A stretch of DNA of 36,803 bases from a virus. Below, in pieces: positions 4,022-31,680 of this stretch; positions within the stretch are counted from its first letter, which is position 1; each line of letters starts with the position of its first letter. A program made the position numbers and the translations under genes. Where the stretch lies: IMG/VR virus record IMGVR_UViG_3300020601_000030, positions 1 to 36,803 of that record. One strand, given 5' to 3'. The notes beneath the pieces are model-generated. The model was not told the DNA's origin and ran no database searches. It was given only the letters and a program-made list of their open reading frames with translations.

Positions 4022-4030
4022 TAAATCTGG

Positions 4031-7000: not shown

Positions 7001-10000
7001 GAAGAAGCATATCAATACGGAACATCGTATAATTATTCTAAGAATTACGAAGAAGACTATAGAATATTTGCACCAATATGGGCAGATCAAAACATGCCCA
7101 ATAATTTTGTAATATTTAAAGTTAAGAATCCTTCTAATCAAACGCAGGTTTATGATAATAATACTGATAGAATATCTGATATTCTTAAAAACGCTGAGAT
7201 TGTTAAATCATTTGATTTGACTAAAAAATCAGCTCTCGGTAAATATATTAGAAATCACATTCAACAGGAAACTTTCCCTAAATCTCCAATAACTGTTTCT
7301 TTTGGTAAAAATGAAACTACTAAATTCAATGGTATCGACTTAAAGTCAGGAGAAATTACAAGCAAAGGGGAATACATCTATAAAGATTTTGTACAAGCTG
7401 ATAAGCCTATTATCGAGGCTAATGACTTTATTACAGATGGGTTCAGAAGAAATGATATATTATGTGCTAATTTACTAAATTTAGAATTTTTATTTGACGA
7501 TGATAATGCAAGTGAATATAGTGTAAATCGTTATTTCGGATTATACGTTGATGATATAAATTCAGGTATAGGTGAGATTAACTCTATTAATAATAATATA
7601 ATTAAATTTAGTGAGGTTTCTTCAATAGTAGATCCAGAAAAACCATTTACAGCAATACCTTCTCAAAAACAAATGACAACATCGCCAACACTTGGTTATG
7701 TAAAAATAAATGATGTTTATTATAAAATTTCTAACTCTGGTGTTTATGATACTGAAAAGTTTGAAGTTAAAATAGACAATACATCTGGAGAAATAGAAAA
7801 AAGTATTGGTATCTCACATACTGGTAGATCAATTTCTTTAACTAATACAAATGAAAGAGGATTTGATTTTGTTAAGATGTCTATTATTTCAAACCCAGAA
7901 AGTGCTGATAAAATAGCATTATTAGATTCTAGAGAAGAATCATATAAGTTTACCTTTATTAAACATGTTCCAGGTGAAACTGTTAATATAAACATAGGTG
8001 ACTCTACTGGAAATTATGCGCTTACGTTCAATAATGGTAATAATTTTAGTGAAACTAAAGAAAATATAGAAAATTCCTGGGAATTAATGTCTATTAAATT
8101 TTATCTAAATTTAGAAATAGATGAAAATGATGAATCTTTTGTTATTACAGAAAAACAAACCAATTTAGGAGATCTAAACATGTATGTCTATGGTACATTG
8201 GGTACTATAATTAGAGTTGATCAATTACAGACTAACGTTAATATTCAAAAAGGTACATATATTGCTAATTATACTTTACCAAAAGGCACATATAAAGGTC
8301 AGCAATACTCTTCACAGGGTAGTTTAGGTGAAGTTGCATCTGCATTAGCCGGAGCGATTGATCAAAATAGCGAAACATTAGATGCATATAACATAGGGTC
8401 AGATATCTGGGTCAAGAGTAAGGTGCCTGGTTATAAACTACTACAACATGCTGTTTTAGTTAATCTTCAAAATGTTATCGATTTTGTTAAAGTAGAAAAT
8501 CAAGATATTAATAACTTATTAAAACTTAGATCTGGAGAAAATACAATTCTCTCTCAATGGAGAGCACATTATTTATCAGGTGGTAATTCTACTGGAAAAT
8601 CTATTTTGGTAGATAATAATACATTAAGCGAAATTAGTGTAGGAGATTATTTAGAAACTAATTATAAAAATATATTTAATAAGGTCATAGATATCGTCGA
8701 GGATATTACTACACCTAATTCGGATAAATCTAAAATTATATTAGATAAAAAGTCTTCTTTGAAAAATGGAGAAGCTAGAGTATTCAATCAAAATATAGTA
8801 CAAATAGGCCTATTTTCTGCATATAACATATATGATATGAATTTTGATTTTTATGATAAATCAAATTCTGACTTAAAGGAATTAGTGTATGAAACTTTAG
8901 AAAATATAGATTATGAACCATATACGAATGCTATAAATAATATAGACAGTATAACTGGTGAATTTAACACTAAATTGGCAGCAACTGATATATTTGATGA
9001 TAATTTCGCACTTAACCCTGAAGATTATTTCTCTAATTTATCAGGTATTTTAAAAGAAGAGTCTAATGATGATGATGTTGCTGATAAAATAGAAAGTGAG
9101 TATGATAGATTAAAGGAGAATCAACTAAAAGAATTTGCTACTAATTCTAGAGTAGTTCCTAATATAAATAAGTGGGTTTTAAAAGATTCTTTAACTGTTA
9201 GAGATCAACCATATTATTTGAATGCTAATGAGGCTTTTGGTAGAACTAATTTTTCCCCAGATATAACTTCAACTTCTAGAAATAAAAATGATATGACCCA
9301 TGAGTGGTTCTATATGGATAAAATTCCAAAATATTTAAGATATGATCAATTAAATAGTACGTTCTCATATATTAATTATATCGAGGATTTTGAATTAACT
9401 CCAGATTTATTTAAAAGTGTTAAAAATGATTATTTTGATAAGTTTATGATTACCGAAGGTTTTGAAAAGAATCTAACGGTAGATGATCTAAACTTAATGA
9501 GAAACGATATTGGTAATTATAGTTTTATACAAAATATAGAGGACGACTTTAATAACACATTCTTTAAAACAGAATTAAAGAAAAAATATACATTAATAGA
9601 TGGCGGAGATACAAGCTCATTTGCTAGTACAATATTTAAAGGTCTTAAAGTTATTTTAAAAAATAGAAAGGAATTTATTAATAAAACAGCATTAGATTTT
9701 GTAAAAAGTAGCGAATTTAATGGATATAAATTTAGTATTTTATTAAAGACTAAAACAGATGTTAATGCAAATGACATAGATTTTGAGGTTATTCAAAATA
9801 AAAAATTCAAATTTGTAATATTCTTTATTACTGTAGATATTAGTGATTATTGGATTAAGGGTAACATGAATAGAAAACTCTTGTATGAATTAAATCATAA
9901 GATATTATATAATCACAGTGAAGGGGATTATGAATATGCTAATACTACATTCGACGGTGCACTTAATTGGAATCAAGCTGATTTTACAGGTAATACACCA

Positions 10001-11608: not shown

Positions 11609-11609
11609 A

Positions 11610-13535
11610 ATGGCAATTAACATTCAAGAGATATTACATCCAAGCGATTCAGACTCTATAAAGTTTGAAAAGATTAACTATAATTTTGATCAAATTTTAG
11701 CAAATGGAGGAGGACCTGCTGGTCCCAAAGGTCAAAAAGGTGATCAAGGACAGGTTGGTTTAACAGGACAAAAAGGTGAAAAAGGAGATATCGGTAATAC
11801 TGGTCAAAAGGGTGAATCTGGTGCTACTGATAGCCCATGGTATAAAGTCGAAGTAGATTCTAATAATGACGGTAGAAACGAAATTACCATTTTAAAACCC
11901 AAAATAGGCACTGATTTAAATATGCCTATTATTTGGTTAGGTGATCCTAGTTTTGAAGAAGGTTTAACGGATGGTGATATTGATACTAATTCTAGATTGA
12001 CAATTGCAAAAGATATAACATTTGAAAGTTATATTAAATTACAGCACAATGTAGACAAAACAATAGTATTAACTAGTACTGAATCTGGTGCATATTCTAA
12101 ATTTAATTTTCAAAATTCATTTGGTAGTACTAATATAGAATTTGGTGCCACAACAGATAAAATTACATTCTTAGCCAATACTTCTTTTTTTAGTGCTACC
12201 GGTGCGGGTGTAAATCTAAAATCTATAGGAGACACTAATATAAAACTAGAAACTTCTGGTAATGGTATATTAGATGTTGATATAAATGCAGAGTTTAAAG
12301 GATATTTAAGATTACCTGCAGGTTCTACTGGAGAAAGACCAGTAACACCACAGTATGGTATGATTAGATATAATACCGATTTAAATATTGTAGAAGCTTA
12401 TTATAACGATAACACTTGGAAAGAATTATGTACTGATTGTGGTTCTCCGGTAGGTGATAGTATAGGTATTTCTGGAGGAGATATTAATGCTAACGCAGAT
12501 GGATCACCTGCTACAGATACTATTTCTATATCTGGAGGAGATATTGATGCTAACACTGATGGATCACCCACCGGTAATGCATCTATTTTTATAGATCCAT
12601 TATATACTACAGGTGACAGTGATACTGTAGCCGATTTATATTACGTATACAATAAAGTTGAGACTTTATATTTAAATTATGTAATTACTCCAGCAAATAC
12701 AGAATTAGACTATTCAGATATTTCTGTTAATGAACCTGGTTTAAATATCACTGTAGATTCTGTTAATAGTAGAGTTATTATAGAAACTGCACTTAGAGCA
12801 ATAGGTACACCATGGGTTGTTAGAATAAGTCATCCTCAAGATGTTAATAAGTATGTTATTTGGAATATACACCCGATTGCAGAAAATAATCCAACTGCAA
12901 CGCCTGCTCCAACTGCAACGCCATTGCCTACAGTGGCATATACACCGGCACCAACTGCGGTTCCAACTGCAACGCCATTGCCTACAGTGGCATATACACC
13001 AGCACCAACTGCGGTTCCAACTGCAACGCCATTGCCTACAGTGGCATATACACCAGCACCAACTGCGGTTCCAACTGCAACGCCAGTTCCAACACCAGTG
13101 CCTACAGTAGCTGCAACGCCAGTTCCAACACCAGTGCCTACAGTAGCTGCAACGCCAGTACCAACACCAGTGCCTACAGTAGCTGCAACACCAGTGCCTA
13201 CAGTAGCTGCAACACCGGTTCCAACACCAGTGCCTACTATAGCGGCAACGCCAGTACCAGTTACTTCTTATAGTCATAGATTAAGTTTTAATTCCAGTTC
13301 TAGCAGTTCAGCATGTGGTGAATTATCTATAAAATATACATTATGGAGTAATGATGCTATACTATCTACTTCTTCAGTCTTTTGGACTGATATGAATTTA
13401 ACAACATGGGATAGTCTTATGCCATTCGGATGGTATTCTAATGGGTCTATATCATGGTTAATCACAAGTTCTTCGGGTGGTAGTACTACTGCTTCTGAAT
13501 TATGTGGTACAGGTGGAGGAAGCCCATCATCATAA
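11610..13535 (+). CDS. Tail fibre protein with collagen-like segment and Pro/Thr stalk (641 aa)
   Basis: Residues 1-32 resemble the N-terminal anchoring helix of phage fibres (SIKFEKINYNFDQIL). Residues 35-71 are twelve Gly-X-Y triplets (GPAGPKGQKGDQ and onward), so a collagen-like trimeric stalk is likely. A beta-rich fibre body follows, with an 'RLPAGSTGERP...GMIRYNTD...W' segment common in trimeric phage fibre proteins. A short tandem duplication ('SGGDINANADGSP', then 'SGGDIDANTDGSP') is coded at about 12470-12568. After an Ig-like stretch comes a long Pro/Thr/Val/Ala repeat region (about 429-551). The last 90 residues form a Cys-flanked module (C near 567 and 630) like the N-terminal module of the preceding protein. 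Likely role: host-surface-reaching fibre or fibril. Confidence 0.8.
   Translation: MAINIQEILHPSDSDSIKFEKINYNFDQILANGGGPAGPKGQKGDQGQVGLTGQKGEKGDIGNTGQKGESGATDSPWYKVEVDSNNDGRNEITILKPKIGTDLNMPIIWLGDPSFEEGLTDGDIDTNSRLTIAKDITFESYIKLQHNVDKTIVLTSTESGAYSKFNFQNSFGSTNIEFGATTDKITFLANTSFFSATGAGVNLKSIGDTNIKLETSGNGILDVDINAEFKGYLRLPAGSTGERPVTPQYGMIRYNTDLNIVEAYYNDNTWKELCTDCGSPVGDSIGISGGDINANADGSPATDTISISGGDIDANTDGSPTGNASIFIDPLYTTGDSDTVADLYYVYNKVETLYLNYVITPANTELDYSDISVNEPGLNITVDSVNSRVIIETALRAIGTPWVVRISHPQDVNKYVIWNIHPIAENNPTATPAPTATPLPTVAYTPAPTAVPTATPLPTVAYTPAPTAVPTATPLPTVAYTPAPTAVPTATPVPTPVPTVAATPVPTPVPTVAATPVPTPVPTVAATPVPTVAATPVPTPVPTIAATPVPVTSYSHRLSFNSSSSSSACGELSIKYTLWSNDAILSTSSVFWTDMNLTTWDSLMPFGWYSNGSISWLITSSSGGSTTASELCGTGGGSPSS
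12915..13244 (+). repeat. Tandem Pro/Thr-coding repeats in the fibre gene
   Basis: Three near-identical 54-base units (12915-12968, 12969-13022, 13023-13076; unit ATPLPTVAYTPAPTAVPT) are followed by three 36-base units (13077-13112, 13113-13148, 13149-13184; unit ATPVPTPVPTVA), a 24-base truncated unit (13185-13208) and a further variant 36-base unit (13209-13244). All keep frame. The 36-base unit recurs in the next gene near 14390-14440. Confidence 0.92.
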
Positions 13536-13574
13536 AAATAAAAACAAGATAAATATAAAAACATAAATATAAAA

Positions 13575-15125
13575 ATGGCAGCAAACGAATACATAAGAAC
13601 AGTGAATATCACACCCTTAGGGACTTCATATTCATGGGATACACCACCTGATTGGATTACAATCGTAAGGGTGGGAACTACTGATGATTGGACGATTACA
13701 GTATCGCCTAATTCGGGTGTTGCCAGAAACGCAACGCTTACTGTTAGGCATGCTAACACAAGTACAATTGATACTATTGAAGTGACTCAAGCTGGTAATA
13801 CAGTTATTGCGCCGACTGCAACGCCGGCTCCAACTGCGGCTCCGACTGCAACGCCGGCTCCAACTGCGGCTCCAACTGCGGCTCCAACTGCGGTTCCAAC
13901 TGCAACACCAGCACCTACATCAGCTGTAACACCAGTTCCAACACCAGTGCCTACTGCAACGCCATTCCCTACGATACCTGTAACACAGGCTCCAACGCCT
14001 GTACCGATTCTATCGGTCGTTATTAATGATAACGGTATCAATGTCACGAGCGTTACGTTGGATGATTTTAATAACGGTCCAGGGTCTTCAGTAACTAAGA
14101 GCTTTAGTTACACAGATACGGCAACAACTACCAATCAAGTACCTACTATAATATCTAAGGATTCCAGATATAGTGTACAATTTGTATACGGTACTAATAT
14201 AAATGGAAATGTAGTAGGAAGTTGTATAATCACTAGTCTTGACGGAGGAGCAAAATTCCCTACAAGTATTATTCTAGAACCTCTTGTTATTGCACACCCA
14301 GATGATAGTAATATTAGATATACTTTAGGTGTAACTTTAACACAAGGTACATCACCAGTAATAGAGCCAACGCCAACGGCTACAGTAGCTGCAACGCCGG
14401 TTCCAACACCAGTGCCTACAGTAGCGGCAACACCGGTTCCAACACCTATTGCTACACTAAGTGCAACGCCTTTTGCTACACTAAGTGCAACACCTATTGC
14501 TACACTAAGTCCAACGCCTTTTGCTACACTAAGTCCAACGCTAGTTCCAACAGCAACTACTTCGTATACCGGAGGCGGCGGAGGCGGCGGCGGATGTCAC
14601 ATAGCTGGTGAAATGATTACATTAGCAAATGGCGAAACTAAAGCAATTGAAAACATACAACTGGGTGATATGCTGTTATCTTATAATATCAATGGTTATG
14701 ATGGTTCTGAAGAGGCATATAGAGAATGGACTTCTCATGTAGATAATCTTGAAGGTGAATTTACATCAGTAGAAGTTACTAATGTCACAGTGGACACATA
14801 TTCTTCTTATTATAATTTCAATGAAGGTTCTCTTAAAATAACATTTGAACATCCTGTTTTAATTAAAGATGTCAATAATATGGTTTCTTGGAAAAAGGCA
14901 AGTGACGTAAACGTAGGAGAATTTATGTTAAATGAAGATTCTCAATGGATTTTAGTTAACACTAAATCGTTGGTAAAAACTGCACAACCATTTTCAACAT
15001 GGTCAATTGACGTAGAATCTGAAGATGTTTATTTCGCTAACGGTATATTAGTACATAATGCAGAAACTGATTTTGTTATTGATAATAAAGACGGTGGAGA
15101 CCCTACACTTGAAGAATTTTTATAA
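13575..15125 (+). CDS. BACON-domain, Pro/Thr-stalk protein ending in a Hint (intein-like) domain (516 aa)
   Basis: Residues about 1-75 match the BACON pattern seen in Bacteroidota surface proteins: 'PPDWITI', 'SPNSG', 'RNATLTV' and the closing 'IEVTQAG'. Two Pro/Thr-rich linkers (about 80-143 and 262-328) flank a beta domain (about 145-260). Residues 333-340 are eight glycines, followed at once by Cys341, which starts a Hint domain: 'CHIAGEMITLANGETKAIENI', 'ITFEHPVL' (block B-like Thr423/His426) and 'VYFANGILVHN' (His494-Asn495). A 21-residue tail starting with Ala496 follows. The domain has the residues for N-S acyl shift and Asn cyclisation but lacks a Cys/Ser/Thr at +1, as in bacterial intein-like domains. 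Probably a virion adhesin that self-cleaves or ligates. No homing endonuclease region is present. Confidence 0.82.
   Translation: MAANEYIRTVNITPLGTSYSWDTPPDWITIVRVGTTDDWTITVSPNSGVARNATLTVRHANTSTIDTIEVTQAGNTVIAPTATPAPTAAPTATPAPTAAPTAAPTAVPTATPAPTSAVTPVPTPVPTATPFPTIPVTQAPTPVPILSVVINDNGINVTSVTLDDFNNGPGSSVTKSFSYTDTATTTNQVPTIISKDSRYSVQFVYGTNINGNVVGSCIITSLDGGAKFPTSIILEPLVIAHPDDSNIRYTLGVTLTQGTSPVIEPTPTATVAATPVPTPVPTVAATPVPTPIATLSATPFATLSATPIATLSPTPFATLSPTLVPTATTSYTGGGGGGGGCHIAGEMITLANGETKAIENIQLGDMLLSYNINGYDGSEEAYREWTSHVDNLEGEFTSVEVTNVTVDTYSSYYNFNEGSLKITFEHPVLIKDVNNMVSWKKASDVNVGEFMLNEDSQWILVNTKSLVKTAQPFSTWSIDVESEDVYFANGILVHNAETDFVIDNKDGGDPTLEEFL
13812..13871 (+). repeat. Two copies of a 30-base Pro/Thr/Ala-coding unit
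   Basis: Two identical 30-base units (13812-13841 and 13842-13871) code PTATPAPTAA. Shorter derivatives of the unit follow to about 13915. They lie in the first linker of the BACON/Hint protein. Confidence 0.85.
14451..14546 (+). repeat. Four 24-base tandem units (ATLSATPF type)
   Basis: Units at 14451-14474, 14475-14498, 14499-14522 and 14523-14546 code ATLSATPF, ATLSATPI, ATLSPTPF and ATLSPTLV. Just upstream (about 14390-14440) are units nearly identical to the 36-base repeat of the previous gene. Confidence 0.88.
14595..15059 (+). other. Hint (intein-like self-processing) domain within the BACON protein
   Basis: This segment codes residues Cys341 to Asn495 (155 residues). It carries an N-terminal Cys, the 'G..I.L.NG....IE.I..GD..LS' block, a block-B-like T..H, and the C-terminal 'YFANGILVHN' block. 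It is preceded by a G-rich tract (14571-14594) coding eight Gly. The length fits a mini-intein or bacterial intein-like domain without an endonuclease. Confidence 0.82.
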
Positions 15126-18581: not shown

Positions 18582-18590
18582 AATAAATTG

Positions 18591-18600
18591 ATATATAATA
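18591..18600 (+). promoter_or_regulatory. ATATATAATA element abutting a start codon
   Basis: The recurrent 10-mer occurs here as GATATATAATAC and ends one base before the ATG at 18602. If it is a -10 box, transcription would start inside or at the beginning of the next ORF, so it may instead serve downstream genes or a leaderless message. Confidence 0.35.
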
Positions 18601-18601
18601 C

Positions 18602-18970
18602 ATGAAAACATTTAATAAATACTTAATCGAGAACACTATCACTGAGAATGATATGAAACTTGTTAACGAAGGTCTTCAAGAAGAATGGACTCCTGAATTA
18701 GAAGCTAAAATAGATGAGGCTTTAGAATTATTCGAAAAGGAATACATGAAAGAGGATGGTACATACGACCTAGAGAGACTTAATGAAGAAATAACAAATG
18801 AAGGTTTCTTTGGTTCTATTATAGGCGGTTTAACGGGATTTGCATTAGGTAAATCAGTTGGTAAAATGGTAGCAAAAGTTTTAGGTATTCAAAAGGGTAT
18901 CTTTTATGATCTATTAACTTCGAGACTTGTAGGTGCCGCTCTAGGTGCTAGTCTTGGTAAAAAACTATAA
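18602..18970 (+). CDS. Probable internal head protein with T4-type capsid-targeting N-terminus (122 aa)
   Basis: The protein begins MKTFNKYLIEN, close to the capsid-targeting sequence of T4 internal proteins (MKTYQEFIAEA). Sites fitting the T4 prohead-protease rule ([LI]-x-E or [LI]-x-x-E) follow at LIE10, ITE15 and LVNE23. The middle is acidic and helical (about 25-70). The last 50 residues are Gly/Ala-rich hydrophobic (GFFGSIIGGLTGFALG, LVGAALGASLGKKL), resembling glycine-zipper membrane-inserting segments. A packaged, membrane-active protein is a plausible reading, but this is inferred. It lies between the tail genes and the recombination genes and is directly abutted by the RuvC-like gene. 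Confidence 0.6.
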   Translation: MKTFNKYLIENTITENDMKLVNEGLQEEWTPELEAKIDEALELFEKEYMKEDGTYDLERLNEEITNEGFFGSIIGGLTGFALGKSVGKMVAKVLGIQKGIFYDLLTSRLVGAALGASLGKKL

Positions 18971-22669: not shown

Positions 22670-24178
22670 GTGGAGCTTACGTTAACTGAAAACAAACAGT
22701 TGTTACGCATTGATGCAGCAACTGAATTAGAATTGGAACAACTTAATATTTCTTTAAATAGAAGAATTGAGTCTTGGCGTTTTAACCCTTTGGTCAAAAA
22801 GGGTTTATGGGACGGTTATGTTTCGTATATTAAGGATGATAAATGGATTCCTTCGGGTTTATGGCGAGAAGTCATGGGCATATGTAAAGAATATAAATTT
22901 GAATTTAAGTTAAATGGTATTACAGACATATTTGATACCAACATAAATCAAGAAAAGTTTACTCAATGGGCGTTAGATTTTTTCGAAAAATCAGAAATAA
23001 CACCCAGAGATTATCAAATAGAAGCAGCTTTTAATATTTTAAAATTTAAAAGATGTCTAAGTGAATTAGCAACTTCAGCTGGTAAAACATTAATTTCGTT
23101 TTTAACAGTTGCTTATTTATTAGAACATGAAAAGGCTAAAAAAATCTTATTTATAGTTCCTAATGTTTCTTTAGTAGTACAAGCAAGTGAAGATTTTTTA
23201 GATTATAACTATAGAAATGCAGTAGACATAAAAGTACAACAGATATATTCTGGTCAAAAAATAAGACCGGGAAGAAATGTAGTCGTAGGAACTTATCAGT
23301 CTCTAGTTAAAAAAGATAAATCTTATTTTAGTGAATTTGATGCTATAATTGTGGATGAAACACATAAGGCAAAATCAGCGTCTATTAAAACTATCCTTCA
23401 AAAATGTGTTAATGCAGATTACAAATATGGATTATCGGGTACTATACCAAAAGAAGGTACTTTAGATAGATTGACATTAATGGCATATACTGGACCTCTT
23501 ATTACTGAAATAAGTGCAAATTACTTACAAAATGAAGGACACATTGCTGGTTGTAAAGTAAAAATAATTAAAATGGATTATGCTCCTCAATCTACAAAGG
23601 ATGCATTTAGAGAAATGTCACAAAATAGATATGAAAGTAAAGATGTTTTTAAATTTGAACAAAACTATGTCATTAATTCACCAGGCAGGCTTAACTTTAT
23701 TACAAGTATTATTTCCAGAGTACGCGGTAATAGTTTGGTCCTTTTCCACAGGATTGAACATGGTAAAAAAATATATGAAAAACTTCGCAGAGACAGTGAT
23801 AAAACTGTTTATTATGTTGACGGTGGAATTGATAAAGATATACGAGAAGAACATAAAAAGAAAATGGAAGCAGGTGAAGAAGTTGTTATCGTTGCTTCTT
23901 ATGGTACCTTCTCAACAGGAATCTCAATCAAAAAAATTCACAATATCTTTTTTACAGAATCGTTTAAATCAGAAGTAATAATTAGACAATCAATCGGTCG
24001 AGGATTACGCCAACATAAATCCAAAGATAGCGTAAATATTATTGATTTCGTAGATGATCTAAGTTCATCTGATTGGGATAACTATTTAATAAGACATGCT
24101 AAAGAACGCCAAAGAATCTACAGAGAACAGAAGTTCAAATACGATATTAAAAATGTAGATTTTGAAGGAGATATATAA
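22670..24178 (+). CDS. uvsW: UvsW-like SF2 DNA helicase (502 aa)
   Basis: The protein has the ordered motifs of an SF2 helicase: 'TPRDYQ' (about 111-116), Walker A 'ATSAGKTL' (134-141), 'VGTYQSL', DETH (229-232), 'GLSGTIP' (motif III), and C-terminal 'IIRQSIGRGLRQH' (motif VI). The N-terminal about 90 residues correspond to the UvsW N-terminal domain, and the length equals T4 UvsW (503 aa). UvsW remodels branched DNA, drives fork regression and removes R-loops late in infection. The start is a GTG at 22670; the ATGs at 22657 and 22668 open frames that stop within a few codons. Confidence 0.9.
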   Translation: MELTLTENKQLLRIDAATELELEQLNISLNRRIESWRFNPLVKKGLWDGYVSYIKDDKWIPSGLWREVMGICKEYKFEFKLNGITDIFDTNINQEKFTQWALDFFEKSEITPRDYQIEAAFNILKFKRCLSELATSAGKTLISFLTVAYLLEHEKAKKILFIVPNVSLVVQASEDFLDYNYRNAVDIKVQQIYSGQKIRPGRNVVVGTYQSLVKKDKSYFSEFDAIIVDETHKAKSASIKTILQKCVNADYKYGLSGTIPKEGTLDRLTLMAYTGPLITEISANYLQNEGHIAGCKVKIIKMDYAPQSTKDAFREMSQNRYESKDVFKFEQNYVINSPGRLNFITSIISRVRGNSLVLFHRIEHGKKIYEKLRRDSDKTVYYVDGGIDKDIREEHKKKMEAGEEVVIVASYGTFSTGISIKKIHNIFFTESFKSEVIIRQSIGRGLRQHKSKDSVNIIDFVDDLSSSDWDNYLIRHAKERQRIYREQKFKYDIKNVDFEGDI

Positions 24179-24213: not shown

Positions 24214-25713
24214 ATGCAAAAATTAAAATCTTTTCAACAATTTGCTACGGAAGTTCAAATTTCTAATACTAGAAAAATTGAAGAAGAAGCAATCGCAAAA
24301 AGAAGCAATGAAGCAGAAACGTTTAAAAACTTACTCTCTGAATTTAATGTCACTTCTGTTAAAGAATTAACTGAAGATCAAAGATCAGAATTTTTTACCA
24401 AATTAAGAGGTGCTGAAATTAACGAAGCAGTTACACTTATCGAAGAAGGCACAAGAGGGCAATTTGGTAAGATTGATAAAAAAGGAAATATTGTTTCTGT
24501 TTATACTCACTATGATTCTTACCCAGAGAATATGTTGCCTTTGATCAAAAAAGGTTACAAAGGCGGTAAAAACGTAGATGATGTAATTGCTAAAGGCGAT
24601 AGCTCTGGTTTAGAGGCTTCTGTAGATAAAATGAATTTCTACGGAGATAAAAATGCAATGACACCGTCAAAGGGTTCGATCTCAGATGTTTCTAAATATT
24701 TAAGAGATGTAGCTAATAACGGTGGAGCAGAATTTGTTTACCTTTGGGACGAAGCTAACAAAGAATGGTTAATGGCAGACATTTATGGTAATGGTTACGA
24801 TGAATTAGTACCAGCATTTGAATCTGTTTCAGTTTCTGTAAACGAAGCTATTGCAGTACAATTTAAAAGAGACGCTAAGAAAGTTGTTACAGTTTACAAT
24901 AATCTATTTGCAAAAAAATTAACTGACTTTGGTGCAATGTCTAACGAATCGGTGTTAGGTTGTATTAAGTACTTATTTGAAATGGCAATGGAAGACGCAA
25001 ACTTCTCAAGAGAAGGTTTTGCAATTTCTAAAAACATTAAAGGTGCAATTTCTTCATATGAAGTAAAAATGCCAGGATTAGGTGGATACTACATTAAAAT
25101 AGGAGCAACTACAACAAAGAGAATTTTAGATCAATACTATTCAGATATCGCTAATGCAGCAGGATGGTCGGGTATTGGTATCGTTGAAGGTACTGCACTT
25201 TATTTACAACAAATCAAACAAGAAGCTGCAGGGCAATCTTTGTTAAACGCATTTAACATGTTTAATGAATCTACTGTCGTAGAAGATGGTGAACTACTTT
25301 GTGAAGCAACAGTTGAAATGGATGCAATGAACCCTGAAGATAAGGACTTTTTAAAATTCTTAAAAAAGAATAAAGTTGAAATCATAGATACAATGATGGA
25401 CGGTCCAGCTGGAGGTCATCCAGTTATTACAATGCAAGGAAAGAGAAAAGATCTTGAAAAGGTTCTTGCTGATGGCGAATACGGATGGGACGATCCAAGT
25501 TTAGCTGAATATATCGAAGAGTCTAAAGTAAACGAAGCTGAAGTTAATTCTGATGAAGAATTTAATGAATATGCAATAACAGTTTTACAAAAAGCATTTG
25601 GTGAAGATTATGATGAGGCTAAAGCAAAAAAAGTAATTGATGGAATTTTAGCTAAAGCTGATGGAGATTATGGCGTAGCAGTAGGTATGTTGACTAGCTC
25701 ATTAGGATCATAA
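24214..25713 (+). CDS. Capsid-targeted or prohead-core-like protein (499 aa)
   Basis: It starts MQKLKSFQQFATEV, which fits the K-x-aromatic-x-x-F-x-x-E capsid-targeting pattern, followed by [LI]xE-type sites (IEEE25 and, further on, LIEE). The middle contains 'GKIDKKGNIVSVYTHYDSYP' and 'FVYLWDEANKEWLMADIYGNG', which look like a small beta fold, and then a helical region. A long acidic helical region ends in 'AFGEDYDEAKAKKVIDGILAK' and 'DYGVAVGMLTSSLGS', a C-terminal pattern I associate with phage head/core-type proteins. The most likely role is an internal head or prohead-core component. The enzymatic content, if any, is unknown. The gene follows uvsW and heads a run of tagged genes. Confidence 0.62.
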   Translation: MQKLKSFQQFATEVQISNTRKIEEEAIAKRSNEAETFKNLLSEFNVTSVKELTEDQRSEFFTKLRGAEINEAVTLIEEGTRGQFGKIDKKGNIVSVYTHYDSYPENMLPLIKKGYKGGKNVDDVIAKGDSSGLEASVDKMNFYGDKNAMTPSKGSISDVSKYLRDVANNGGAEFVYLWDEANKEWLMADIYGNGYDELVPAFESVSVSVNEAIAVQFKRDAKKVVTVYNNLFAKKLTDFGAMSNESVLGCIKYLFEMAMEDANFSREGFAISKNIKGAISSYEVKMPGLGGYYIKIGATTTKRILDQYYSDIANAAGWSGIGIVEGTALYLQQIKQEAAGQSLLNAFNMFNESTVVEDGELLCEATVEMDAMNPEDKDFLKFLKKNKVEIIDTMMDGPAGGHPVITMQGKRKDLEKVLADGEYGWDDPSLAEYIEESKVNEAEVNSDEEFNEYAITVLQKAFGEDYDEAKAKKVIDGILAKADGDYGVAVGMLTSSLGS

Positions 25714-25734
25714 TAAAAACAAGATACATATCTT

Positions 25735-27021
25735 ATGAAGATCTACAATAATTTTGAACAGTTTGTAACTGAGAGATTACATTCAAATATAAAAGAAGCT
25801 TTAATTTTAGAAGGTGGAGCTGCCGGTCACATGGCACATCCATTTGATGATAAGTCATTAACATTCGCAGATTTTAAAGCTCTTATAGAAGCTGGTTTAA
25901 GCGGTGAACTTAATTTTGAAGAGGACGCTACTGAAAAAACTGACGGACAAAATGTATTCGCAACTATTCAAGATGGTGAAGTTAAGTTTGCTCGTAATAA
26001 AGGTGAACTTATAGCACCAATGGATCTTCCAACATTTAAACAAAAATTCGACGGCCATGCATCTGCAATGGTTGAAGAAACTTTTAAATTTGCTGCAGAA
26101 GATTTAGCCAATGCATTAATTAAATTACCAGCTAAAGTTCAACAAGAAGTATTTGAAAATGGTCTTAATTGGATGAATATGGAATTGATCTATTCTAAAA
26201 ATCCAAACGTAATCTATTATGACAGAGATATTATTCAATTTCATGGTATAAAAAAGACAGATGGCAATGGTAATATAATTGGTGAAGATAGTAAACCTGC
26301 ATCAGTAATAGCAAAAGCGTTAGAGTCTGTTAAAGCAAATGTCGGTAAAACATTTACTATAATTCCGCCTCAAATAATTAAATTAGGCAAGGATCTTAAT
26401 TTTGAAGAAAATAAAAATAAATTTATCAAGAAGGTTGAAGCACTCCGCGACAGATATAATTTGACAGACGCTGATGAAGTTAGCCGCTATCATGAAATGT
26501 GGTGGAGAGAAACTATAGATTCAAATTTTCCAGATTTAACACAAGATCACAAAGAAGGTTTATTATTAAGATGGGCATATGGTGATAAAAAGACTCTAAA
26601 TCTAAGATCATTAGATAAAGATCTTGGTAAAGAAAAAGCATCTTTAATTAAAAAGTTTGACAAAGAGGATGTGAAAAAGAAATATAAAGAGAACATTAGA
26701 CCGTTTGAAGATCTTTTCTTAGAGTTAGGTTCTATTATTTTAAAAAATGCATCTAATTTTGTTGCGGCCTCACCAGACGCTGAAATGCAAAGATTACATA
26801 ATCAAATTAGAACTGAGGCTGAAAAAATTAAAAAAGGCGGATCAATTGATCAAATACAAAAAGTCGAAGCTGAATTAGCTAGATTAGAAAGAATAGGTGG
26901 AATTGATTCAATTATGCCAACCGAAGGTATTGTCTTTGTATATAAAGGTAAGACTTTTAAATTAACAGGAACATTTGCTGCAATTAACCAGCTTATGGGT
27001 ATTATTAAGTACGGAAGATAA
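25735..27021 (+). CDS. Ligase-like nucleotidyltransferase with capsid-targeting N-terminus (428 aa)
   Basis: The N-terminus MKIYNNFEQFVTERL fits the capsid-targeting pattern, followed by a good protease-type site at LILE26/GG. Ligase-superfamily motifs are then present: motif I 'EKTDGQNV' (Lys68-x-Asp-Gly71, the adenylylated lysine), 'ARNKGEL' shortly after, 'NMELIYS' (about 148-154), motif IV 'EGIVF' (Glu397-Gly398) and motif V 'KTFKLTG' (Lys409). This is the layout of ATP-dependent RNA/DNA ligases and related nucleotidyltransferases; RNA ligase seems likelier because no OB-fold domain follows motif V. The domain has a long helical insertion (about 215-380) between motifs III and IV. The next gene carries a second, degenerate ligase-like domain. 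Confidence 0.7.
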   Translation: MKIYNNFEQFVTERLHSNIKEALILEGGAAGHMAHPFDDKSLTFADFKALIEAGLSGELNFEEDATEKTDGQNVFATIQDGEVKFARNKGELIAPMDLPTFKQKFDGHASAMVEETFKFAAEDLANALIKLPAKVQQEVFENGLNWMNMELIYSKNPNVIYYDRDIIQFHGIKKTDGNGNIIGEDSKPASVIAKALESVKANVGKTFTIIPPQIIKLGKDLNFEENKNKFIKKVEALRDRYNLTDADEVSRYHEMWWRETIDSNFPDLTQDHKEGLLLRWAYGDKKTLNLRSLDKDLGKEKASLIKKFDKEDVKKKYKENIRPFEDLFLELGSIILKNASNFVAASPDAEMQRLHNQIRTEAEKIKKGGSIDQIQKVEAELARLERIGGIDSIMPTEGIVFVYKGKTFKLTGTFAAINQLMGIIKYGR

Positions 27022-27031
27022 ACAATATAAC

Positions 27032-28879
27032 ATGGCATTACAAAACTTAAGAACATATTTTCAATCTACCAATATCAATGATTTCCAATCAATGTTAGAT
27101 TTACCATGTGTAGTATCTGAAAAAATACAAGCATCTTCTTTTCATGTAAAGAAAACATCGACAGGATTCCAGTATTATAAAAGCGGCTCTAAGCAGGCTA
27201 TGGATAAAGTAGATAGAACGATGGTTAAATACTATGAAAATGCTATCAATTATTTTGGAACTATCATAAAGGAAGTGACAGAAGACATGCCACTTGATTG
27301 GAAGTTTGGATTTGATTACATGATAGACAATAAAACAGTGGATATAGAATATGAAGCTCTGCCAAAAAACAACTTAATATTAACACATATTCAAATATTA
27401 AATCCTAATAACGATACTCAAATTAAAAAAGTAATTAGAGATCCACAAATTTTAAATAAGTGGGCAGATAAATTGGGTGTACAGAGACCTCCAATTATTT
27501 TCCAAGGTAAATTACAAGAAAATCAAAAGAAAGATTTAGTAAATCTTTTAGCCATATCAGATTCTGATTTTTCTATTAAATATAAAGATCAATCATTTAC
27601 TAGAACAATATATAATATTTTTAATAATGGCCTTACTAATCCAGCATTAAACACATCTTTTGATGATGATATAGATGGATTAATAGTTAATTTTTACGAA
27701 GGTAAAAATCCAAAGAGTTTTAAATTAGAAAGATTTGATAGAAAACCAGCTGAAGATAGAAAACCTTCAGACATGTATCAAATATCTCTATTAGATTTAG
27801 TTGAATATTTAGAAGATTTTGATATATCAAGTGTTAGTTTAGAAGAAGAGGAAGCAGATCTACGATATATTGAATTGATTTCTAGTATATTTAATGCATA
27901 TGTAGAAAAAAACGCATCGAAATACATAGGTACTAATTTTGATTCTGCAGACTTCTCAGATAATAAAGGATTTCAACTCAACACTGTTTTTATAAAAAAC
28001 GAAAAAACAATTTCACTTGTACAAAATAAAGTCCTATCTGAATTATTTAAAATTGCATTAGGCAGTTTTAGAAAGAGAAGAAACAGAGAAACAGACATTA
28101 TTAATAAAGATTTAATGAAACAAATCAATGATATAGTAGATGTTATTGAATCTATAGTAATGTCAAAAACTAATGAAAACGACGTTATGAACTTTAAAAC
28201 ATATTTACTTAATCAAAAATTACAATATACTGAAAGCCCTATATTAGAAGGACTTACAGTTAAATATCCAGAACATGGTAAAACACCAGTTAACATGTTT
28301 GTTGGTCGTTTCCAACCATTCACTTTGGGTCATGCTAAAGTAGTTGAGACTATTCACAAACAAAACGGATATCCAGTAGTAATCTTATTAGTGAAATCAA
28401 AAACTAAGAAAAAAGAAGATGCATTTTCTAGACCTTATGATGAAGAAACTCAGGTTGAGATGTTGAATAGTTTAAAATCTAAATATCCAATTGAAGATGT
28501 TTTTGTAATTCCAACGGGCGGCATTGACACTATGTTTAATGCTATGAGGCCTAAATACGAACCAGTACTTTGGGGAACAGGAACAGATAGAATGAAGAGT
28601 TATGGATTTCAAGTTAACAACCCAGAATATAGAGAAGATTTAGGATGTAGAACCGATTTTGGTCTATTTGAAATTCCAAGAAGTGGTAAAAACATTTCAG
28701 CAACACAGGTTAGAAATGCAATGTTAGATGGCGATGAGAAGCTGTTTAAGAAATTAACTCCTAAAGAAATACATCATATGTATGGTGAGTTAAAGTCTAA
28801 ATTAGAAGACTCTATGGGTGTTGTAGCAGAATCAGATTCTAACACGATGACTTTCGATCAATTTTTAAAGAATATATAA
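27032..28879 (+). CDS. Fusion of degenerate ligase-like domain and NMN adenylyltransferase (615 aa)
   Basis: The ATG at 27032 is chosen, 10 bases after the previous stop; an in-frame ATG at 26975 would add 19 residues inside the upstream gene. The N-terminal half resembles a nucleotidyltransferase: 'VSEKIQASSF' (Lys31, but Ala34 where KxxG has Gly), 'FGFDYM', 'DDDIDGLIVNFYEG' and 'SFKLERF'. The C-terminal half is an NMN adenylyltransferase of NadM/NadR type: 'VGRFQPFTLGH' (about 424-434, the [HT]xGH nucleotide-binding site), 'VLWGTGTDRM' and 'ISATQVRNAM' (555-564, the ISxxxxR site). It should make NAD+ from NMN and ATP. The extreme C-terminus 'TMTFDQFLKNI' resembles the capsid-targeting motif placed at the other end. 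The fusion suggests coupled RNA and NAD metabolism. Confidence 0.75.
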   Translation: MALQNLRTYFQSTNINDFQSMLDLPCVVSEKIQASSFHVKKTSTGFQYYKSGSKQAMDKVDRTMVKYYENAINYFGTIIKEVTEDMPLDWKFGFDYMIDNKTVDIEYEALPKNNLILTHIQILNPNNDTQIKKVIRDPQILNKWADKLGVQRPPIIFQGKLQENQKKDLVNLLAISDSDFSIKYKDQSFTRTIYNIFNNGLTNPALNTSFDDDIDGLIVNFYEGKNPKSFKLERFDRKPAEDRKPSDMYQISLLDLVEYLEDFDISSVSLEEEEADLRYIELISSIFNAYVEKNASKYIGTNFDSADFSDNKGFQLNTVFIKNEKTISLVQNKVLSELFKIALGSFRKRRNRETDIINKDLMKQINDIVDVIESIVMSKTNENDVMNFKTYLLNQKLQYTESPILEGLTVKYPEHGKTPVNMFVGRFQPFTLGHAKVVETIHKQNGYPVVILLVKSKTKKKEDAFSRPYDEETQVEMLNSLKSKYPIEDVFVIPTGGIDTMFNAMRPKYEPVLWGTGTDRMKSYGFQVNNPEYREDLGCRTDFGLFEIPRSGKNISATQVRNAMLDGDEKLFKKLTPKEIHHMYGELKSKLEDSMGVVAESDSNTMTFDQFLKNI

Positions 28880-28881
28880 TA
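28872..28881 (+). promoter_or_regulatory. ATATATAATA element before the 531-aa gene
   Basis: Exact copy of the 10-mer overlapping the stop codon of the NMNAT fusion gene, 20 bases before the next ATG. This is the same arrangement as at 24171. Confidence 0.42.
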
Positions 28882-28901
28882 AAACATATCACACGTAAAA
28901 A

Positions 28902-30497
28902 ATGGATAATAATCAACCACTAGAAGAAAGATATATTACAGTAAAAAGAAAATATACTGAAAATCACCCTGAAAAAACAGTCGGAAAAGCAGCTAAAATT
29001 AGAAATAAAGTTTTAGAGGCTATTAAAGATGGTAAATTAACAAAGGATGAATTTGAGTCAATCGTTAGAGAAATGACTGTAGATTCTACGAGATGGTTGA
29101 GAAGAAACTCCACATATTTCAATGTTAGTGAAGATGGTATTACACTTTCTAAAACAGGTAAAAGAGTTTTAAATGAATTAGCACCCTCTAAAACTGAACT
29201 AGAAATTAATGAAAAAGCTTCGGCATTTAAACAAGCAAATGTTATGGCTGAAGAAATATTCGGTGAATTTGGAATCGCAACACTGGACTATGATCAAATA
29301 TCAAGAGTTATTGATATTAAGAGAGCTGATAAATTAGCTAAGAAATATGGAGAAGATAGTTTTATGGCTTTAACTGAATTAGACATGGAAGAACTTCTTA
29401 ATAAGAACCCAAGATTAGTAAAAGAAAATAAATCAAACAATATGAAATCAAAATTAGTATTTGAAAGTTTCAGTGAATTCGTAGAATCACTATCAACTTC
29501 AACGAACGAATCGACAGAGATGTTAACTGAAGCATTTAAGTCTTCTTTGTTAGCTAGCTTATTTAATAATAAATATGGCAAATTCGATAAAAATTTAGCT
29601 AAAGCATTCTATGGTACAGCTAAAGTAAAAATGGACTTAATTGAAGATGAAGATCTTTTAACAGTTGATCCTCAAACGGCTTATAAAAACAAACAGGCTG
29701 ACACAATTATTTTCTATTTATCAGATACACCTAAAGAGAATCCTCATGCACCTAGCGATGCATGGACCGATCATAAGTGGATCCCAGGTGAAGGCTACTT
29801 ATTAGCGGTTGCTTCTGGTGATAATGCATTCTATACTTCTGTATGGGGTGGAGGCCATTTTAGTCGCGGTAACAGAGAAAGGGCACTGAAAAAAGTAGAC
29901 AATGGTTCAACTGACTCTATTGGTATTTCTAAGAAGTACAAAGGATGGGACGGAACAGGTCTTTATAACGTAAAAAGAATTGCTGAAGTTGCAGATAGAG
30001 CTATTATTTTAAATATGGCACTTTTAAGACAAAAGTATTCTTCTGATGGTCAAAGAGACGCAAGAGCTGCTGCTAAAAAGGGTGCAATTGCATTTAAGTC
30101 ACATAAAGACTTTAAGAAAGAAAACATGGACAGATATCACCAAATTTTAGCTAATAAGGCGGCTTCTTTACCATTAGATGAAATGGTTGCAGGCGCTATT
30201 GAATCTCTAACTACTCAAATTAAAGACGGTTTAACTAAAGGTGAAAAAGGACGTTATGATGATATTATCATTGGTCGTAAAGCAAATGGTAGCGAAGCTA
30301 GATTAAGAGATGCTTCTAATCATATGTCAAGCATCTTAGACGATTATAATAGATATGTTAGTTATATTGCACAGGCTGAAGAGTCAGAAAAACAATATGG
30401 TGACAGAGAGTCTTACTACGAAAGAGAATCTAAGAACTATGCTAAGAACATTAAAGATAAGATCAATCAGATTGAATCATTTGACTATGTCTGGTAA
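28902..30497 (+). CDS. Two-part protein with internal capsid-targeting motif (531 aa), unknown
   Basis: Residues 1-180 form a basic helical region (KRKYTENHPEKTVGKAAKIRNK and onward) that looks like a small DNA-binding or scaffold domain. At Met181 the text restarts as 'MKSKLVFESFSEFVESL', a capsid-targeting-like motif, followed by a protease-type site at MLTE/AF (about residue 210). The remainder has 'ADTIIFYLSD', 'WIPGEGYLLAVASGDNAFYTSVWGGGHFSRGNRERALKKV' in parts, and a helical, Lys/Glu-rich C-terminus ending 'NQIESFDYVW'. The arrangement looks like a fused pair, or one gene with an internal start that makes a tagged shorter product. No function is recognised. The bounds of the ORF are firm. 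Confidence 0.6.
   Translation: MDNNQPLEERYITVKRKYTENHPEKTVGKAAKIRNKVLEAIKDGKLTKDEFESIVREMTVDSTRWLRRNSTYFNVSEDGITLSKTGKRVLNELAPSKTELEINEKASAFKQANVMAEEIFGEFGIATLDYDQISRVIDIKRADKLAKKYGEDSFMALTELDMEELLNKNPRLVKENKSNNMKSKLVFESFSEFVESLSTSTNESTEMLTEAFKSSLLASLFNNKYGKFDKNLAKAFYGTAKVKMDLIEDEDLLTVDPQTAYKNKQADTIIFYLSDTPKENPHAPSDAWTDHKWIPGEGYLLAVASGDNAFYTSVWGGGHFSRGNRERALKKVDNGSTDSIGISKKYKGWDGTGLYNVKRIAEVADRAIILNMALLRQKYSSDGQRDARAAAKKGAIAFKSHKDFKKENMDRYHQILANKAASLPLDEMVAGAIESLTTQIKDGLTKGEKGRYDDIIIGRKANGSEARLRDASNHMSSILDDYNRYVSYIAQAEESEKQYGDRESYYERESKNYAKNIKDKINQIESFDYVW
29442..29495 (+). other. Possible internal start with capsid-targeting motif
   Basis: An in-frame ATG at 29442 codes MKSKLVFESFSEFVESL. 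The upstream sequence (AAATAAATCAAACAAT) is A-rich, like the leaders of genuine starts in this window. Initiation here would make a 351-residue product starting with the tag. Confidence 0.35.
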
Positions 30498-30549
30498 ATT
30501 TAAAAAAGTATTCTTTGAGTATTGGATTAAACCATGGTACTCATTATAA
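30487..30549 (+). CDS. Possible 20-aa micro-ORF
   Basis: ATG at 30487 overlaps the end of the 531-aa gene and the frame stops at 30547-30549, giving a short basic/aromatic peptide (MSGKFKKVFFEYWIKPWYSL). The peptide is amphipathic and aromatic-rich. It could be real or chance, and no leader signal supports it. Confidence 0.2.
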   Translation: MSGKFKKVFFEYWIKPWYSL

Positions 30550-30565
30550 TTAAAAGATAAAAATT

Positions 30566-30859
30566 ATGAAACACATAAAACTATTTGAACAATTCATTAA
30601 CGAAGAAAAAATCAACGTTAAGAAAGAAGTTAAGAGACTTAAAAAAATGGGATACGATGCTTCAGAATGGGGCGATGGTATCATGATTGATGGCGTAGAT
30701 GCTCCAAACTCGAATTACGATGGAAAGGTAACAATGTCTTGGGATTCTGAAGAAGGTATTTATAGCGATGATAACAGATACGCTGGAGACGATCATAGTT
30801 ATGATAAATTTTTGGATATTGTTGAATACCCAACAGACACTGAAGGTGAGTGGGAATAA
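30566..30859 (+). CDS. Small acidic protein with capsid-targeting-like N-terminus (97 aa)
   Basis: It starts MKHIKLFEQFINEEK, very close to the pattern MK-x-x-x-F-x-x-F-I-x-E, with an INE13 protease-type site. The remainder is acidic (Asp/Glu/Ser/Tyr-rich) with 'MGYDASEWGDGIMIDGVDAP' and 'TMSWDSEEGIYSDDNRY'. There is no enzyme motif. A small internal head protein is the simplest reading. The ATG is preceded by an A-rich leader (AAAAGATAAAAATT). The following gene starts 14 bases downstream. Confidence 0.6.
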   Translation: MKHIKLFEQFINEEKINVKKEVKRLKKMGYDASEWGDGIMIDGVDAPNSNYDGKVTMSWDSEEGIYSDDNRYAGDDHSYDKFLDIVEYPTDTEGEWE

Positions 30860-30873
30860 AATAAAAGCAAACT

Positions 30874-31680
30874 ATGCCAAGTACGAGTAAATCACAGCAA
30901 CGACTAATGGGACAAGCTTACGCTTATAAAAAGGGTGAGTTAAAGTCTAGTGAAGTTAGTGCTGAAATAAAAGAATTGGCAGATAGTATGACACTTAAGC
31001 AACTAAAAGACTTTGCAAGCACAAAACATGATGGTTTACCAGAAACGGTAGACGAAGCATTTATCGGACCGTTTGTATTTAATGATAGTATGTCAGATGA
31101 AGAATTACTAGGAATGTATAACGGAGCATTAGATGGTTATGCTAATTATGCTAAAGGAATGCACTATGCTAAATCCGATTATAAGAAAGCTTATCAAGAA
31201 ATTGAAAAGATCTTAAAGAAGAGAGGTGTTGCAGTAGACGAAAACATAACCCCTGCTAATTTAACAGGTATGGGTCCAGTAGTTTTACCAAATAATGGTA
31301 CAGTTGGATCGGGCGATGTACCAGCTGGATCAGGCGACGCAGAAGAAGAATACAAGAAGAAGAAAAAGAAAAGAAAAGAAATGAAACATTTAACTACATT
31401 TGAAGCATTTACATTTGACTATCAAGGTACAGATATTAGAAATCCTTTTACAGACGAGACTGCAAGAATGGATGTAGATCCAAATAGCTATTATGGAAAA
31501 GACTACGCGAAATCGGACATTAAAAAGATTGTCGATGCAAGTGAAGCTTTTATTGCTAAATACACTGAGTGGAAAGATTATGCACCATTAGACGCTGACG
31601 AAGATTTACATGCAGATTTTAGCGATTATGTTAAATCATCACTTGATGAATTAGTGAAAATAGTTAAAAAACACGGATAA
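30874..31680 (+). CDS. DUF3008-like N-terminus joined to a capsid-targeting-like segment (268 aa)
   Basis: The N-terminus 'MPSTSKSQQRLMGQAYAYKKGEL' in parts matches the small basic phage/bacterial family DUF3008 (SKxQQRxMGxAxAxKxGE), and 'KQLKDFASTKHDGLPETV' is the usual continuation in phages. A helical part (about 70-130), a Gly/Pro-rich linker (NNGTVGSGDVPAGSGDAEEE) and a run of Lys/Arg (about 159-168) follow. Met170 then starts 'MKHLTTFEAFTFDYQG', a capsid-targeting-like segment, and a helical C-terminus. An internal start at 31381 could make a separate 99-residue product. It is the last gene before a strong terminator, so it ends the tagged-gene operon. Function unknown. Confidence 0.6.
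   Translation: MPSTSKSQQRLMGQAYAYKKGELKSSEVSAEIKELADSMTLKQLKDFASTKHDGLPETVDEAFIGPFVFNDSMSDEELLGMYNGALDGYANYAKGMHYAKSDYKKAYQEIEKILKKRGVAVDENITPANLTGMGPVVLPNNGTVGSGDVPAGSGDAEEEYKKKKKKRKEMKHLTTFEAFTFDYQGTDIRNPFTDETARMDVDPNSYYGKDYAKSDIKKIVDASEAFIAKYTEWKDYAPLDADEDLHADFSDYVKSSLDELVKIVKKHG
31381..31413 (+). other. Possible internal start with capsid-targeting-like motif
   Basis: In-frame ATG at 31381 after an almost pure A/G leader, coding MKHLTTFEAFT. The purine-rich upstream run (AAGAAAAGAAAAGAA) could favour ribosome binding but also codes the Lys tract, so the evidence is ambiguous. Confidence 0.3.

Follow-up and report, generated by a model that had tools for sequence, protein, structure and literature searches.

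Capsid-targeting-type tags and modular polyproteins in a predicted cargo locus of an uncultured marine T4-like phage

We analysed a 36.8-kb IMG/VR virus fragment (IMGVR_UViG_3300020601_000030, positions 1 to 36,803; this whole stretch is called the window) of an uncultured marine T4-like phage, a distant cousin of T4. The analysis revealed that genes within positions 24214-31680 carry a short peptide tag of the type that targets T4 internal proteins (IPs) to the capsid (capsid-targeting sequence, CTS), and that three of them, encoding proteins of 499, 531 and 268 amino acids (aa), belong to families whose members in related phages are strings of modules joined by a repeated site. The best explanation, which we regard as probable, is a late cargo locus whose products would dock by means of a CTS-type tag, be released by S77 prohead protease cuts of tags, scaffold and junctions, and be injected as a payload. 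The polyprotein nature of the three families, which was missed by the first-pass annotation of the window, is the larger novelty of the locus.

That annotation had placed CTS-like motifs in a run of window genes. The open reading frames and motifs were found where it had put them, including the N-terminal tags of the 499-aa (KSFQQFATE), 428-aa (NNFEQFVTE), 97-aa (KLFEQFINE) and 122-aa (KTFNKYLIE) proteins and the C-terminal motif of a 615-aa protein, and so were the cleavage sites that it had named (LILE26, LVNE23 and MLTE210). The motifs that it had reported in the 531-aa (MKSKLVFESFSEFVES) and 268-aa (MKHLTTFEAFTFDY) proteins are indeed internal, and relatives keep the aromatic pair at this place, but they are degenerate and score below 5 with a position weight matrix (PWM) of the tag. 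Four window proteins have the tag core, [F/Y]xx[F/Y][ILV]xE, at their N-terminus, against 0.13 expected from its internal rate or 0.07 from shuffled N-termini. Six long relatives (123-212 kb), which were read whole alongside the window, contain 72 further N-tagged genes (7-15 per relative), giving 76 genes in 36 families without any other BLAST similarity once the tag is masked. In this combined set the tag offset peaks sharply at residue 7 (39 matches) and residue 4 (9); the PWM gave 73 N-terminal matches versus 0.6 expected, a result that is optimistic for N-termini, the matrix having been trained on the tags themselves. A chance origin of the tags was ruled out by the offset, shuffle and PWM tests. 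When IMG/VR was searched with a degenerate DNA pattern, 80 loci with 109 exact tag matches were obtained; the open frame upstream of the tag is at most 30 aa long in 106 of these, and the bodies form 65 clusters. The densest tag cluster seen was on a 14.8-kb contig (L194), where approximately 5 kb of one strand contain eight tagged genes that match the pattern exactly. Of the 462 kb of the huge phage LR756500, the 400 kb analysed include 19 N-tagged genes, and Tenacibaculum phage PTm1 showed no tag enrichment (2 versus 0.9-1.3 expected).

The common N-terminus might alternatively be a nucleic-acid element (a translation start or promoter extension) or recently copied DNA, a possibility favoured by the location of the tag at gene starts with A-rich leaders and a common octamer. 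However, the same motif is also found at the C-terminus and inside proteins, and synonymous codons within the tags of a genome coincide at the rate that genome usage predicts (same-codon 0.576 versus 0.574 expected). Because the tag codons vary in this way, it is the tag peptide on which selection acts. An origin of the tag as a DNA or translation element was rejected by this codon test, and we consider it very improbable.

The tag is connected with the prohead by several observations. Its spacing (aromatic residues three apart, and after the second a hydrophobic residue at +1 and glutamate at +3) is that of the T4 CTS; these residues occupy positions 7, 10, 11 and 13 in most tag-bearing genes and 4, 7, 8 and 10 in the 122-aa protein. 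Mutation of T4 IPIII has shown that targeting depends on residues 4 and 7 (both aromatic) and processing on 8 and 10, and the T4 protease gp21 cleaves after [LI]xE (PMC9026906). The small acidic protein encoded between the portal and the S77 protease (the position of T4 gp67/68) bears the tag in every one of the six relatives, though only weakly in two of them. Another tagged product is a coiled-coil protein encoded after the capsid gene. In five relatives (L099, L108, L116, L123 and L150) the S77 protease and the scaffold form one protein of 640-820 aa, and the equivalent protein of PTm1 is annotated as prohead core scaffolding protein and protease. The scaffold part contains 5-9 copies of [FY]xx[YH][VIL]xE (0.4-0.5 in shuffled sequences), spaced mostly by 14, 21 or 28 residues (multiples of 7); no copies of this repeat were found in T4 gp22. 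We infer that the tag imitates the scaffold repeat, and this sharing of a motif provides a concrete residue-level hypothesis for capsid targeting.

Another feature common to tagged and head genes is the octamer GATATATA, which is strongly strand-specific in the clade. It precedes 29 of 73 tagged genes (40%) and 106 of 922 other genes (11%) in the window and the six relatives (Fisher P = 5e-9), as well as the portal and protease-scaffold genes. The octamer looks like the late promoter of the clade, and its pattern is consistent with late co-expression of tagged and head genes. Neither the T4 late promoter TATAAATA nor a Shine-Dalgarno motif was enriched before tagged genes. In the window the octamer is located at 4030, 11545, 18590, 19730 and 24170, and the start codon often lies exactly 12 bases downstream of it.

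The genome tests all agree in supporting the view, already put forward in the first-pass annotation, of a T4-type capsid-targeting tag, because the tag is distributed over unrelated families, is selected as a peptide, has the IPIII spacing, is present on the core protein beside S77, resembles the scaffold repeats and shares the octamer with head genes. The tagged proteins might nevertheless be parts of the prohead core or scaffold that the head loses, by degradation or expulsion, before DNA is packaged, with no delivered payload. The tags of the gp67/68-position and coiled-coil proteins, together with the repetition of the motif in the scaffold, would fit this alternative, but many of the tagged families are enzyme-like, and homologues have been recorded in mature cyanophage virions, so that we judge it unlikely. 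The enzyme-like matches comprise ATP-grasp, GNAT, CTP_transf, AAA/zeta-type kinase and Acb1/2H; PGA_cap was also matched, and some of the matches are below Pfam cut-offs.

The 499-, 531- and 268-aa families of the relatives, with members of up to 1,111 aa, consist of modules joined by ES[VI][VI][TN]E↓[AG] (the arrow marks the boundary or candidate cut). A strict form of this junction, ES[VILAM][VILFM][TNSA]E[AGS], was detected 144 times in 1,984 proteins and once in shuffled sequences, and 110 of the 144 are located in 43 multi-site proteins, nearly all of these three families; none was found in PTm1 or in 400 of the 462 kb of LR756500. In silico cutting of the 64 junction-bearing proteins, at boundaries that rest on a regular expression, generated 49 recurring module families, defined by 75% mutual coverage (single linkage at low coverage had merged most modules). 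The modules appear in changing surroundings: there are 8 copies of M1, each in a different context, and 23 copies of M0 in 15 contexts, and a tagged solo homologue exists for 44 of 209 internal modules. The clearest pair is ESVITE↓GKWSNIMKGV within a polyprotein and MKKVKLFEAFITE↓GKWSKIMTGV in a solo gene. The solo module starts directly after the tag glutamate (FITE↓), as the embedded one does after ESVITE↓, and therefore the tag glutamate and the junction glutamate mark the same boundary.

The DNA of the junction (74 sites with unrelated flanks) has an identical second valine codon in 82% of pairs, versus 40% expected, and 81 of 82 junction DNA matches are in frame. Because the junction is conserved at the DNA level, unlike the randomised tag codons, it is probably also a seam for recombination and module exchange. 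We would give an even chance to the wider proposal that combinatorial polyproteins are loaded into the head, with the 21-base junction (GAATCAGTAGTTACTGAAGCT) serving both as prohead-protease site and as domain-swap seam among polyproteins and tagged solo genes, thus creating an evolvable, auto-processed injected payload. A Pfam scan of the 1016-aa and 349-aa members for an embedded peptidase returned no family, and most modules have no assignment. We found no report in the open-access literature of a prohead protease that cuts polyprotein cargo.

It might also be argued that the tag directs proteins elsewhere (to the membrane, a replication site or another partner) and that the ES..E junctions serve as flexible linkers or are cut by a host protease. 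Family assignment is possible for only a minority of tagged proteins, which leaves room for this interpretation. The exact T4 CTS spacing, the motif common to tag and scaffold, the presence of S77 in 12 of 14 tag-bearing contigs of at least 120 kb, and the hydrophobicity and [LIV]xE↓[AG] form of the junctions, which match T4 sites (e.g. gp23 SFLTE↓A), all argue against it, and we hold it to be distinctly improbable.

The tag also occurs in cyanophages. The first-pass annotation had considered an NMNAT as a new kind of cargo; this was mistaken, since NMNAT in cyanophage virions is already known (PMC9602691), the enzyme having been detected in the virion proteomes of S-SCSM1, S-CBWM1, S-SZBM1 and S-CREM2. 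Seven cyanophage NMNATs carry a T4-type N-terminal tag of the pattern MKSFxxFLxE↓[AT]: that of S-SCSM1 starts with MKSFLQFLKE↓A, and the other six with MKSFFQFLSE↓A, MKSFSQFLTE↓T, MKSFTSFFTE↓A, MKSLFQFLSE↓A, MKNFLAFITE↓A and MRSFLTFLTE↓A. In S-SCSM1 the NMNAT lies in a cluster whose other members are a DUF3008 protein and three more, and all five carry a virion-protein annotation; the DUF3008 protein is C-tagged, ending with RTFKEFLEYIE, and is 51% identical over 63 aa to the N-terminus of the window 268-aa protein. The S-SCSM1 proteome comprises 45 proteins identified by mass spectrometry of CsCl-purified virions, with NMNAT named among them, and its passages on the proteome contain no mention of a tag. 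Two virion proteins of the cluster (L304:732-1703 and L304:4436-5998) start with a different leader (MDSKTFNSLSEAYAAVY and MTHLNDISKVYMEKV), so that a second tag type may be in use among cyanophages.

We infer packaging, cleavage, injection and function in the window clade from the genomes themselves, and the proposed mechanism would operate as follows. The genes of 24214-31680 would constitute a late cargo locus, whose capsid-targeting peptide (mostly N-terminal, otherwise C-terminal or between modules) would dock the cargo into the prohead core by imitating the motif of which the scaffold part of the protease-scaffold protein contains several copies. Upon shell closure, the S77 prohead protease would cut after [LIV]xE, removing tags and scaffold. 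Its cuts at the ES[VI][VI][TN]E↓[AG] junctions would also divide the large cargo into small domains, to be retained in the head until they pass into the host along with the DNA. At entry, the predicted RNA ligase and nucleotidylyltransferase of the locus might counter host defences, plausibly by repairing tRNA and resynthesising NAD. For the three internal proteins of T4, now recognised as anti-restriction factors, assignment took decades; with a recognisable tag, much of the unassigned gene content of abundant marine T4-like phages becomes predicted injected payload with predicted cut positions. Cleavage of polyprotein cargo by the head protease, if true, would give DNA phages a new route for delivering many small proteins together.

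Several points weigh against this mechanism. The S77 gene, present in relatives and tag-bearing contigs, is absent from the 36.8-kb window itself. Many 499-aa orthologs keep the aromatic pair and have lost the glutamate, so their processing may differ, and the 428-aa homologues of Microcystis phage Mel-JY01 and LR756508 are untagged despite S77. The [LIV]xE rule is short and arises by chance, so that the sites are candidates only. In S-SCSM1 as a whole, N-terminal tags show no enrichment in the detected proteins (1 of 48 versus 2 of 231, P = 0.43), a comparison which with three tags has little power, and the authors of the proteome caution that enzymes present in abundance may co-purify.

The features of the locus are collected in Table 1.

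Table 1. Tagged genes, tags, candidate cuts and octamers of the window
Feature	Position	Strand	Remark
Octamer GATATATA, promoter-like	18590..18597	+	12 bases before 122-aa gene
122-aa protein	18602..18970	+	directly after tail-tube-like gene; tag MKTFNKYLIE; N-tagged orthologue in all six long relatives
122-aa candidate sites LVNE23↓G and ITNE↓G	within 18602..18970	+	latter before Gly-zipper hydrophobic tail
Octamer GATATATA	24170..24177	+	44 bases before 499-aa gene
499-aa tagged polyprotein	24214..25713	+	leader, phrog_1987 domain (79-190), more modules, 58-aa C-terminal module
499-aa N-terminal tag FQQFATE (aa 7-13)	24232..24252	+
499-aa candidate junction VNE211↓A	24838..24849	+	ES-type site
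499-aa candidate junction SKVNE441↓A	25522..25539	+	before C-terminal module M0
428-aa tagged protein	25735..27021	+	KTDGxN nucleotidyltransferase-like motif (EKTDGQN)
428-aa N-terminal tag FEQFVTE	25753..25773	+
428-aa candidate cleavage site LILE26↓G	25801..25815	+	E26-G27-G28 invariant, 14 orthologs
615-aa predicted RNA ligase (Rnl2-like) + nucleotidylyltransferase (NMNAT/PPAT-like) fusion, C-tagged	27032..28879	+	PF01467 2e-8
615-aa candidate site ESPILE406↓G	28232..28252	+	between the two domains; E406, L408 invariant, 31 orthologs
615-aa candidate site GVVAE600↓S	28817..28834	+	before C-terminal tag
615-aa C-terminal tag MTFDQFLKNI	28847..28876	+	short helix 608-614 in model
531-aa protein	28902..30497	+	polyprotein family, two modules
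531-aa degenerate internal tag MKSKLVFESFSEFVE	29442..29486	+
531-aa candidate junction EMLTE210↓A	29517..29534	+
97-aa solo tagged protein, consensus tag MKHIKLFEQFINE	30566..30859	+	highest PWM score, 30.2
268-aa protein	30874..31680	+	DUF3008 domain (PF11450), Lys-rich linker, internal tag, C-terminal module
268-aa internal tag MKHLTTFEAF	31381..31410	+	the protein's C-terminus in several orthologs

The orthologs of the 499-aa protein are polyproteins of 4-10 modules with ES..E junctions, and the module following the internal tag of the 531-aa protein has a relative that is a solo N-tagged gene (L074:12845-13855). A cut at the second candidate site of the 122-aa protein would release its Gly-zipper end as a possibly membrane-active peptide.

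The first-pass annotation had also suggested ligase-like cargo, for which the 615-aa protein has better support than the 428-aa protein. The 428-aa family (239 confirmed IMG/VR relatives) is composed of the tag, a linker varying in sequence and length, and a conserved L[IVL]xE26↓GGAAGH; its KTDGxN motif is invariant, but the match to T4 RNA ligases is weak and non-significant, comparison with the sequences of solved structures gave chance matches only, and the structure model was poor (predicted local distance difference test, pLDDT, 61) and had no significant match in a structural search. The N-terminal half of the 615-aa protein is best supported as a predicted Rnl2-like RNA ligase fold: the model (pLDDT 80) matched T4 Rnl2 (2hvr) in Foldseek at 1.2e-7, and a candidate motif I lysine is located in SEKIQAS, with E30 and K31 invariant. 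Its C-terminal domain has a nucleotidylyltransferase fold with a GRFQPFTLGH motif (PF01467; PPAT-type structural matches, 3e-5). The candidate cuts are predicted to fall in two disordered linkers, the low-confidence stretches of the model including 380-406 (with the E406 site) and 598-605 (with the E600 site). The C-terminal motif lacks the glutamate; in 31 orthologs T607 is invariant and F608 is conserved in at least 90%, while the preceding linker is variable. A 428-aa-like domain stands, untagged, behind a cytidylyltransferase-like domain in Mel-JY01 (L159:3311-5230), and therefore the ligase-like/nucleotidylyltransferase partnership recurs in another order; LR756508 (L161:4504-7251) encodes a 915-aa untagged fusion.

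The window also encodes a tail-tube-like protein, a RuvC-like resolvase, a UvsW-like helicase and a gp32-like protein (recognised by eye). Positions 4079-15125 contain large tail/fibre-like proteins with long Pro-Thr-rich repeats (PTPTPTATP, VPTPVPTVAATP), and the end of the open reading frame at 13575-15125 resembles an intein/Hedgehog-type (Hint) domain (CHIAGEMITLANGETKAIENIQLGDMLLSY ... VHNAE). The capsid protein of the 212-kb relative is closest to that of LR756500 (50%), followed by Tenacibaculum phages and Prevotella Lak phages. The A-rich gene leaders, with Shine-Dalgarno-like motifs in only about 1% of genes, make a Bacteroidota host likely; a host search among genome contigs found no relatives.

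Among the closest known systems, T4 IPI-III share with the locus the aromatic-x-x-aromatic-[ILV]-x-E leader on unrelated bodies, the [LI]xE rule and an S77 protease; like IPI, the 428-aa family has a linker between the aromatic pair and the [LI]xE site (PMC9026906). T4 has three IPs and related T-even phages at least ten (PMC12373910). Unlike in T4, the tags described here are carried by larger enzyme-like and core proteins, occur also at a C-terminus, share their motif with the scaffold repeat and accompany putative polyprotein cargo. T4 Alt is a large packaged and injected enzyme, processed by gp21 at both termini (PMC9026906). The window 615-aa protein is a different enzyme. For Alt, no description of a conserved CTS-like motif at the C-terminus is known to us. 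The cyanophage NMNATs lack a fused Rnl2-like ligase and are N-tagged, whereas the window domain (approximately 24% identity) is fused to such a ligase and C-tagged. Polyvalent proteins, whose domains have disparate activities and which have been predicted to undergo packaging and injection, with proteolytic release by embedded peptidases as a proposal (PMC5512222), similarly combine several disparate domains in one polypeptide, as seen here in the modules and the 615-aa ligase-nucleotidylyltransferase; in contrast to them, the families studied here have CTS-type tags, a junction conserved at the DNA level and candidate repeated sites for a prohead protease encoded separately. Finally, the giant phages SPN3US and phiKZ carry prohead-protease-processed leaders on packaged ejection proteins (PMC5694885), but these propeptides often exceed 100 residues and no module arrays have been described for them, whereas the tag of the window clade spans 10-13 residues.

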